A stretch of 19,619 bases of DNA from Treponema sp. (lineage in GTDB: Bacteria > Spirochaetota > Spirochaetia > Treponematales > Treponemataceae): contig JAAZCS010000122.1 in the NCBI GenBank assembly GCA_012513125.1, positions 1-19,619 of the forward strand, in the 5' to 3' direction. Numbering within the stretch: position 1 is the first letter of the stretch; each line of letters begins with the position of its first letter. A program made the position numbers and the translations under genes. The notes under the pieces are model-generated. The model was not told the origin of the DNA, ran no database searches, and saw only the letters and a program-made list of their open reading frames with translations. This document shows positions 1-8,695 of the stretch, in pieces.

Positions 1-1524
1 ATCAGGTTTAATTGATGTCATGTAGTAAATACCCAAAACCATATCCTGAGAAGGATAAACAATAGTATCACCATTTGCAGGATCAAGAAGGTTTCTTGCA
101 GACAACATAAGTGTCCAGCATTCCATTTGTGCAGCTTGTGTTAATGGAACGTGAATAGCCATCTGGTCACCATCAAAGTCGGCATTGAATGCTTTACAAG
201 CTAAAGGATGAAGTTTAATCGCCTTTCCTTCAACTAAAACAGGTTCGTAAGCTTGAATACCAAGTCTATGCAATGTTGGAGCACGGTTTAGCATTACAGG
301 ATGTTCTCTTACAACTTCATCCAATATTGCGTAAACTTCAGGAGCTTCACTTTCTACAAGCATTTTTGCCTTTTTGATATTTCCAACAACTTCTTTTACA
401 ACAAGTTTTTTCATCAAAAACGGCTTAAACAATTCAAGTGCCATTTTTGTTGGAAGACCACATTGCCACATTTTCAATTCAGGACCAACAACAATTACAG
501 AACGACCAGAATAATCAACACGTTTTCCGAGTAAGTTCAAACGGAAACGACCTTGTTTTCCTTTCAATAAATCTGAAATTGACTTCAAAGGTCGATTCGA
601 TGCACCCTTAACAGCACGTTTTCGTTTTGTATTATCAAATAAAGCGTCAACTGATTCCTGCAACATTCTTTTTTCATTTCGAATAATAATATCAGGAGCA
701 CTTAACTGCTGAAGTCTCTTCAAGCGATTATTTCTATTAATTACACGTCGATATAAATCATTTAAATCTGATGTTGCAAAACGTCCACCATCAAGCTGAA
801 CCATAGGTCTTAACTCTGGAGGAATTACAGGAATTACATCAAGAATCATCCAAGAAACTTTATTTCCAGAAGCTCTGAAATTTTCAACAATTTCAATTCT
901 TCTAAGAAGTCTCTTATCACTCTTCAAACCCTTTTCGCGCATTTTTTCACGCAATTCGTATGACAATGCATCCAAATCTAAGTTTTCAAGTAAAAGCTTT
1001 ACAGCCTCGGCACCCATATCAGCAATAAAAGTTGAACCATAATGCTCTTGGGCTACTTGATATTCTTCTTCAGAAAGAAGTTGACCTTTTTTTAAGTCAG
1101 TATCACCAGCGTCAATTACTATATATTTCTCATAATATAAAACAGAACGAAGAGCTGCAACTTGCAAATCAAGTAACAATCCCATTCTACTTGGAACAGA
1201 ACGATAATACCAAATATGACTAACAGGAGCTGCCAATTCGATATGTCCCGTTCTTTCACGTCTTACTTTGAAATGAGTAACTTCAACACCACAACGATCG
1301 CAAACAACACCTTTATAGCGGATTGATTTAAACTTTCCACAATAACATTCCCACTCTTTTGTAGTACCAAATATTCTTTCACAGAACAATCCATCTTTCT
1401 CTGGACGAAGAGTTCTATAGTTTATTGTTTCTGGTTTTTTAACTTCACCATAAGACCATGACTTAATAGTTTCTGGAGAAGCCAGTTTTATTTTTAGACT
1501 GTCAAAATCTTGAACATCACGCAT
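1..1524 (-). CDS. rpoC: RNA polymerase beta' subunit (RpoC), N-terminal 508 codons, cut by window edge
   Basis: Largest catalytic subunit of RNA polymerase; with beta it forms the active-site cleft. Reading from the ATG at 1524 gives [14 protein letters not shown] and an uninterrupted frame of 508 codons to base 1. The N-terminal zinc-binding cysteines are visible at about residues 60, 62, 75 and 78 (CYC...CDRC). The magnesium-binding active-site motif NADFDGDQM is at about residues 447-455. The remaining two thirds lie outside the window. The start is set by GGAGG six bases upstream, inside the end of rpoB, and by the 8-nt ATGCGTGA overlap with the rpoB stop, which points to translational coupling. 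Identity is certain from these motifs. Confidence 0.97.
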
Positions 1525-4500
1525 TCACGTCCTCCTTTTCAAATCCGGAAGAATTTTTATCAATTAATTCTTGATCTCTTTCTGTTAAGGCAATTTGTTT
1601 ACCTTTTGCATCATAAATTGTGAAATCAAGAGCCAAACCTCTAAGTTCCTGCACCAAAACATTGAATGATTCTGGAACACCCGCTGGAGAAGAAGGATCT
1701 CCCTTAACAATTGACTCATAAATCTTTGAACGTCCGTTCATATCATCTGATTTAATTGTCATCATTTCTTGTAATGTATTTGCTGCACCATAAGCTTCAA
1801 GAGCCCATACTTCCATTTCACCAAGACGCTGTCCACCGAACTGAGCTTTACCACCAAGAGGCTGCTGTGTTACCAATGAATAAGGACCAGTTGAACGAGC
1901 ATGCATTTTATCATCAACTAAGTGGTGCAATTTCATAAAGTAGATAACTCCAACAAATATTGGATTTACAAAAGGTTCCCCAGTACGACCATCATGTACA
2001 ATTTGTTTACAATCGCGTGACAACCCTGCTTCTTCAAGTTTTGCAGCAATTTGCTCTTGAGAAGGAGATTGGAATACAGGTGCTTCAAATAATGTATTTA
2101 AATACTTACCTGCCATACCCAATTCTGATTCCATAATCTGACCAATATTCATACGAGAAGGTACACCAAGAGGATTCAAACATACATCCAAAGGAGTTCC
2201 ATCTTCCAAATAAGGCATATCTTCAATTGGAAGAATTCTTGCAACAACACCTTTATTTCCGTGTCGTCCGGCCATTTTATCACCTTCACAAAGCTTACGC
2301 TTGTTTGCAATAAGAACTTTTACAATCTTATCTACACCAGGATTCAAATCATCGCCTTCAGAACGACTCAATTGTTGAATATCAATTACTATACCTTCAA
2401 CACCGTGAGGCAAGCGTAATGAAGAATCTCTTACATCTTTTGCCTTCTCACCAAAAATTGAGTTTAATAATTTAAATTCAGGAGTTGTTTCTGTTTCACT
2501 TTTTGGAGTTACTTTTCCAACAAGAATATCACCAGAACGTACTTTTGCACCAACACGAATAATTCCTTCTGAATCAAGATTAGAAACTGCTTTATCGCCT
2601 GTATTTGGAATATCACGTGTAATTCTTTCAGGACCAAGCTTTGTCTCCCTGATTTCAATAGAAAATTCCTTAATATGAATTGATGTGTACATATCTTCAC
2701 GAACAACGCGTTGAGAAATCAATACAGCATCCTCATAATTGTATCCATTCCAAGGAACGAAACCAACCATGATATTTCTACCAAGAGCTAATTCACCATT
2801 AAATGTTGAAGGACCATCAGCAATTACGTCACCTTTAGCAACTTTCTGTCCTAATTGAACAGTTGGGCGCTGATGATAACAAGTATCCTGATTTGTTCTT
2901 TGATATTTCAATAATTCATATTCATCAAGAATAGAAGGATCTTCATTTGATTTAATTTTAATAATGCAACTTGAAACAAAAACAACTTCACCAGCTCTTT
3001 TTGCCTTAATCAAAACTCCAGAATCATAAGCACATCTTTTTTCCATTCCAGTTCCTACGATTGGTGGCTCTGGGAATAAAAGAGGAACAGCCTGTCTCTG
3101 CATGTTACAACCCATCAAAGCACGGTTAGCGGCGTTATGTTCCAAGAAAGGAATCATTGCAGCAGAAACTGAAATTACCTGATGAGGCGAAACATCGATA
3201 TATTGAATATCTTTTGGACTTCTTTGGCTATAATCACCTTGTTTACGGCAAGATACTAAATCTATTGGGAAAGAACCATCTTCTTTAATTCCTTCAACTA
3301 CCTGTCCAATAAAATATTTATCTTCATCAATAGCTGAAAGATATTCAACTTGATTTGTTACCTTTCCATCAACTACTTTTCTGTAAGGTGCTTCAAGGAA
3401 TCCATAATCATTAACACGAGTATACATTGCAATTGAAACAATAAGTCCAATATTTGGACCTTCCGGAGTTTCAACAGGACACATACGACCATAATGAGAA
3501 TAATGAACATCACGAACTTCGAATCCAGCTCTGTCTCTTGAAAGACCACCAGGTCCCAAAGCATTCAAACGTCTTTTATGAGTTAATTCTGCAAGTGGAT
3601 TTACTTGATCCATGAATTGTGAAAGTTGAGAAGACCCAAAGAATTCTTTTATTGCTGCTACTATCGGTTTGATTGAAATCAAATCTTGAGGTTTCATAGT
3701 ATCAGTTTCTTTTAAACTCATTCTTTCTTTTGCAATTCTTTCCATCCTGCTAAACGCGGACTTCAATTGATTAGTCATCAACTCACCAACAGATCTAACA
3801 CGACGATTTCCCAAATGATCGATATCATCAATTTGTTCTTCAGCGATGTAAACTTTAATCAAGAATTTCATAGTATTGATTACATCGTCTTTTGTTAGTG
3901 TGAATTCTGCTATATCTTCAGTATCAAATTTTTTATTTAATTTATATCAACCAACTCTACCTAAATCATATCTTCTTTCTGAAAAGAACATAGAATTCAA
4001 ATCTTTTTCTGCCTGTTCAACAGTCATTGGTTCGCCAGGTTGCAAAATTGCATAAACTGCAGCAAGAGCATCTTCTCTTGTAGGTTCATTATCAACAGAA
4101 CCTTCTTTTACATACTTAACTTCTTCTCTTTCGAAACAATTAATTATTATTTGTGAATCCAAAGATTCATTTTTGTTATTATAAGAATCATTATCTTCAT
4201 TTGTTTTAAAATTAATAACTGTTACAGACTCAATTTCATTTGCAATCAAATCATCAATATCATGAGGATGAAGTTTTACACCTGCATTGAACAAGCGTTT
4301 TTCATCACCACTTTCATCTTTAATGATTACAGCACTTGCTAGTACTTTTCCAACTAAAGAATCTTTTGTTTCAGTATCATTTTTAACAGCTAAATCTTCA
4401 ACTTTATAAAAACATCTAATAATGTCTTCTCTTGTTGTAAAACCTAAAGCACGTAAAAATAAAGTTCCAAGAATTTTCTTTTTTCTGTCTATTTTTGCAT

Positions 4501-5062
4501 ATATGTATTCTTTCTTTTGATCAATTTCAAATTCAAGCCATGATCCACGATAAGGGATGATTCTACTTGAATAAACTTCTTTATCATGACAAAAAATAAC
4601 ACCAGGCGAACGATGTATTTGTGAAACAACAACGCGTTCTGCACCGTTAATAACAAAAGTTCCTCTATCAGTCATAAGAGGAATATCACCCATATAAATA
4701 TCTTTCTGTAAGATAGCACCAGTTTGTAAGAAATTTAAATTAATTCGAGCTTTTAATGGAACTGAATAAGTTTGACCTTTCTGTTTACTTTCAACTTCTG
4801 AGAATTTTTGATTCTGCCAATCTAATTCATAAAATTCATATTCCAATGACATATCGCCATTAAGACTTTCAATAGGAAAAGTAGAAGTGAAAACTTCCTG
4901 CAATCCCTGATCTAATAATTTTTCACGCTTATTTGCTTTTTCTGTTTGTAGAAAACTTTCGTATGATGAAGTTTGTACAGAAATAAGATTTGGAACATCC
5001 ATAAAACTTTTGATGTTCTTGCCGATATATTCTCGGTCATTTGTTCGTGTCTTTTCGAACAT
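1517..5062 (-). CDS. rpoB: RNA polymerase beta subunit (RpoB), full-length frame interrupted by one in-frame TGA
   Basis: Second catalytic subunit of RNA polymerase. From the ATG at 5062 (strong SD AGGGGG just upstream) to the TGA at 1517 there are 1182 codons in one frame, normal for a spirochaete RpoB, but codon 372 is TGA. The first part (371 residues, ending YDLGRVG) and the second (YKLNKKF onward) are contiguous in the same frame; the family has VGR followed by YKLN or MKFN, so TGA replaces the conserved Arg. Later motifs are intact: the rifampicin-cluster segment [15 protein letters not shown], the hybrid-binding region and the C-terminal clamp. The first ATG after the stop is at 3871, 25 codons on, with no visible SD. 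The gene is essential, so sequence error, strain variant or readthrough are all more likely than a dead gene. The natural terminal stop is also TGA. Confidence 0.93.
3947..3949 (-). other. In-frame TGA codon inside rpoB at a conserved Arg position
   Basis: Read on the minus strand the codons are aga gtt ggt TGA tat aaa tta aat, giving R-V-G-stop-Y-K-L-N. E. coli RpoB has AVGRMKFN here, so the expected residue is Arg. A single C-to-T change of CGA, or A-to-T of AGA, would create it. Frame is preserved on both sides, so this is a substitution and not an indel. Confidence 0.95.
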
Positions 5063-8622: not shown

Positions 8623-8695
8623 AGCCCCCGTGCAGAATCGAACTGCAGACCTCAACATTACCGCTGTTGCGCTCTACCAACTGAGCTACAAGGGC
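8623..8695 (-). tRNA. tRNA-Thr, anticodon GGT
   Basis: A 73-nt cloverleaf on the minus strand. The acceptor stem is GCCCTTG/CGGGGGC (two G-U pairs) with discriminator T. The D-arm is GCTC/GAGC, the anticodon stem CAACA/TGTTG has loop GCGGTAA (anticodon GGT, reading ACC/ACU), and the T-arm is TGCAG/CTGCA with loop TTCGATT. CCA is not encoded. It is the first gene of the unit. Confidence 0.95.

Follow-up and report, generated by a model that had tools for sequence, protein, structure and literature searches.

In some bacteria UGA is a sense codon: it is read as Trp in mycoplasmas and as Gly in Gracilibacteria, where essential genes carry TGA in frame. An in-frame TGA also occurs in genes into whose products selenocysteine is inserted. 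A third kind of interrupted frame is found in fragmented draft or metagenome assemblies, in which an essential gene may contain one isolated stop while keeping its frame and its homology past that stop. The rpoB gene described here, from a Treponema genome, shares a feature with each of the three; a literature search that covered split beta subunits, readthrough in rpoB and stop codons in assemblies from metagenomes brought up no paper that looked relevant.

The DNA analysed, referred to as the window, is a stretch of 19,619 bases that makes up the whole of contig C339 of the source genome (G000). This genome – 406 contigs, 2,265,936 bases and 80.62% complete – is a fragmented draft, probably assembled from a metagenome. 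Its best named relatives, in a search with the second rpoB piece that may omit records of the window itself or very close to it, are Treponema assemblies with 87-88% identity, several of them from ruminant stomachs.

The interrupted rpoB frame

On the minus strand, the window letters at 3947-3949 read TGA, and the same TGA is present in the genome's own copy of contig C339. It is codon 372 of an rpoB frame that opens with the ATG at 5062 and closes with the terminal TGA at 1517-1519, with 1181 residues and this single internal stop. The reading frame is the same on both sides of codon 372. The internal TGA is more than a chance occurrence, because the parts before and after it jointly form one complete beta subunit, as the following features (all on the minus strand) illustrate:

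1517..5062, minus strand: rpoB (beta subunit of RNA polymerase), 1181 residues, one internal TGA, terminal TGA at 1517-1519
3947..3949, minus strand: internal TGA at codon 372, an Arg in the otherwise identical full-length protein P0001 (introduced below)
3950..5062, minus strand: 371-codon piece ahead of the TGA, covering Rpb2 domain 1 and a portion of domain 2 (Pfam)
1517..3946, minus strand: 809-codon open piece past the TGA, with the terminal stop; Pfam end of Rpb2 domain 2 and domains 3, external 1, 6 and 7
3869..3871, minus strand: ATG, lying 26 codons past the TGA and the earliest possible start there; by eye, the 30 bases ahead of it contain no obvious ribosome binding site

Among 120 loci examined, some of which share a genome, Arg is found at the place of the stop in all 114 whose alignment reached it, the alignment of the remaining six having fallen short; this alignment was used instead of a motif scan, which came back without the motif in 3 of 31 loci. 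Two PDB alignments also have Arg at this place. Both the in-frame TGA with its frame kept on either side and the conserved Arg, which an earlier, sequence-only reading of this DNA had proposed, are therefore borne out: the former by the letters of the window and of the contig, the latter by the aligned loci.

Past the TGA, the rpoB sequence is identical to P0001. Compared with G077 – the best match after the window itself among the genomes searched with P0001 – dN is 0.091 past the TGA (808 codons) and 0.149 ahead of it (368 codons); the part past the TGA shows no decay.

An intact counterpart and the origin of the stop

When the rpoB frame, with an X at the stop, was searched against about 5.8 billion proteins, the best match was P0001, a protein of 1181 residues with 100% identity, represented by 4 member sequences and 7 contigs; the runner-up was 87% identical. 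P0001 and the window agree at 1180 of 1181 positions, and at residue 372 P0001 has Arg. The longest of its contigs, at 125,790 bases, is about six times longer than that of the window (19,619 bases). TGA is not known to stand for Arg in any NCBI code, which speaks against P0001 being the window contig translated under another code. The search table marks the sources of P0001 with '-', the sign it gives to proteins encoded by the window; we take this to flag near-identity, because the window as it stands does not encode P0001. We read the table as saying that the 7 contigs carry this exact sequence and not merely its 90% cluster, because other rows combine many members with one contig (P0008, for example, with 36 members and 1 contig). 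These contigs probably belong to the same species as the window. What would mark the stop as an error is an otherwise identical gene product that is intact elsewhere in the same organism, and P0001 is such a product, provided that the species is indeed the same.

An error is the most likely explanation, given that a complete protein, identical but for this residue, is encoded by other recorded sequences. In all likelihood, the TGA is a single-codon consensus error in one contig, and the organism itself has an intact rpoB with Arg at that codon. The cause would be technical and not a mutation in living cells: a mistake in the reads or in the consensus, or else a minority variant that entered the consensus, would have introduced the TGA into contig C339, while the organism would keep an intact rpoB encoding Arg at residue 372. 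Another lineage of the species could nevertheless have a real TGA.

The alternative that survives best is a real and recent nonsense allele, present in a minority of cells – either dying or provided with a second, intact copy – and assembled into the contig. Such an allele would look the same, with one codon changed and the rest of the protein identical, and a second rpoB copy could be missing from an incomplete assembly. Against it stands the single rpoB locus found in the 80.62% complete assembly; in addition, cells that lose the beta subunit are expected to die, and it should be rare for a dying minority to supply the consensus base. On balance, we consider this explanation improbable.

Isolated stops in rpoB across the genus

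Isolated stops in rpoB are not confined to this genome. P0001 was searched against 200 genomes of the genus and matched in 155, with rows listed for 147, some of them partial. While 143 of the 147 listed genomes have no stop in the matched part of rpoB, four have exactly one in frame: TGA in G000, and TAA in G220, G064 and G123. These stops align to four different residues of P0001, namely 372 (Arg, G000), 171 (Tyr, G220), 856 (Glu, G064) and 87 (Phe, G123), the last three thus lying away from residue 372. All four occur among the 45 genomes with 200 or more contigs, and the 102 genomes below that number have no such stop (one-sided Fisher 0.008), a link with fragmentation that rests on four cases, on rounded counts and on a cut-off of 200 contigs picked after the data had been seen. 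That the stops lie at different residues, are of two kinds and come from fragmented assemblies is in keeping with sporadic errors, and not with one mechanism common to all. The three TAA-containing loci are L189 (G220:C8:9900-13900), L190 (G064:C75:7400-11500) and L191 (G123:C226:4100-8200), and their stops are probably errors as well.

With isolated stops in 4 of 147 listed genomes, a single stop of this kind does not by itself indicate readthrough or recoding. The numbers carry a warning for work on such assemblies, and the first check on a stop of this kind is to look at how further assemblies of the same species read. The sequence-only reading had listed three options for the window – a base-call or assembly error, a true nonsense codon overcome by readthrough or a suppressor tRNA, and a beta subunit made in two pieces. 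The error is now the best supported, because P0001 is encoded on 7 contigs and isolated rpoB stops are present in three other fragmented Treponema assemblies; the other two options have gained no positive support.

Use of UGA and its possible decoding in the source genome

A real TGA would make an essential gene dependent on the decoding of UGA, which would be striking. Recoding was surveyed in 41 stretches, including the window, with 267,957 bases (31,929 of them N), or about an eighth of the genome, containing 224 gene-like segments. About 12% of the sampled G000 bases read N (31,929 of 267,957, in 40 sampled contigs, L137-L156 and L161-L180, plus the window), and the survey accordingly covers less than its full length. 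Stop-ended segments number 200: TAA is the stop of 130, TAG of 41 and TGA of 29, a count that includes the internal rpoB TGA. No further pair of gene-like segments split by TGA was found among the 224 segments, although pieces shorter than 50 codons would be missed. Among non-overlapping segments there are 24 same-frame neighbours: the rpoB pair (TGA) and 23 split by TAA or TAG, which are taken as gene junctions, a start codon following within 0 to 14 codons.

A looser scan of 21 stretches yielded 19 same-frame pairs; TGA was the separating codon in 9, rpoB among them. Apart from rpoB, the TGA pairs (8) and a further 3 with TAA or TAG were checked, and all 11 were rejected, as they lie inside strongly coding frames on the opposite strand.

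UGA recoding is rejected because there are no further TGA-split cases in the 41 stretches and TGA is an ordinary stop here. It terminates rpoB, lexA and holA, and the tRNA-Trp in the window has the anticodon CCA. On each of these points – TGA as a normal stop of the three genes, the ordinary tRNA-Trp and, given the count of terminal TGA codons, the improbability of a recoded genome – the prediction made from the letters alone agrees with the data. A variant release factor 2, suggested at the same time as something to look for, was not found: genes similar to RF1 and RF2 are both open, and the RF2-like gene looks intact, with the release-factor motifs SPF and GGQ seen by eye.

In the loci of 22 tRNA family matches, ARAGORN identified 23 distinct tRNA genes, and no anticodon among them matches UGA. 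This set is incomplete – tRNA-Arg with UCU is also missing, even though AGA is the commonest Arg codon – and the absence of a UGA-reading tRNA is therefore weak as evidence. For tRNA-Sec, the best match in this incomplete genome scores 41.5 bits against a cut-off of 47 and sits on a tRNA-Leu. A tRNA-Thr(GGT) at 8623-8695 of the window was found by ARAGORN but is absent from the 22 family matches, so at least one tRNA gene escapes that list.

These data bear on the second alternative, in which readthrough of UGA, or a suppressor tRNA that decodes it, allows full-length beta to be made from the TGA-bearing gene. The conservation on both sides of the TGA is what such decoding would lead one to expect, and a suppressor could lie outside the incomplete set of 23 tRNA genes. 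The otherwise identical P0001 on 7 contigs, however, has an ordinary Arg; TGA serves as a stop elsewhere in the sampled stretches, with no second TGA-split pair; and the open RF2-like gene with its motifs argues in the same direction, as do, weakly, the lack of a UGA-reading tRNA among the 23 found and of a tRNA-Sec match over the cut-off. We regard readthrough or suppression as highly improbable, and give the same low credence to its specific form, in which this Treponema strain truly has the TGA and obtains full-length beta by readthrough or through a suppressor tRNA-Arg encoded in the missing part of the genome.

That beta is made in two pieces, by restart at the ATG at 3871 – correctly noted in the sequence-only reading, in frame and followed by a 784-codon frame – is hardly credible, given the lack of an obvious ribosome binding site ahead of this ATG, a break within Rpb2 domain 2 (P0001 residues 319-423 being the best stretch), the loss on restart of 25 residues including the conserved YKLN, the occurrence of a stop at the residue-372 place in none of the relatives listed, and the absence of a 371-residue copy of the first piece among the best 120 matches, although such pieces might hide in the P0001 cluster.

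As a real biological feature, then, the internal rpoB TGA is very unlikely, and a comparison with the known systems bears out its closest affinity. Unlike the recoded genomes of mycoplasmas and Gracilibacteria, this genome has a single such site in the sample, uses TGA as an ordinary stop and shows no UGA-reading tRNA among the 23 found. Selenoproteins differ from the window rpoB in that no tRNA-Sec scored over the cut-off (the genome being incomplete) and in that the place of the stop is an Arg in 114 of 114 aligned loci. The likeness is greatest to the isolated stops of fragmented assemblies, including those in the other three stop-bearing rpoB genes; the window rpoB is the one among the four for which the comparison with an intact protein was made, and for it an otherwise identical one is on record.
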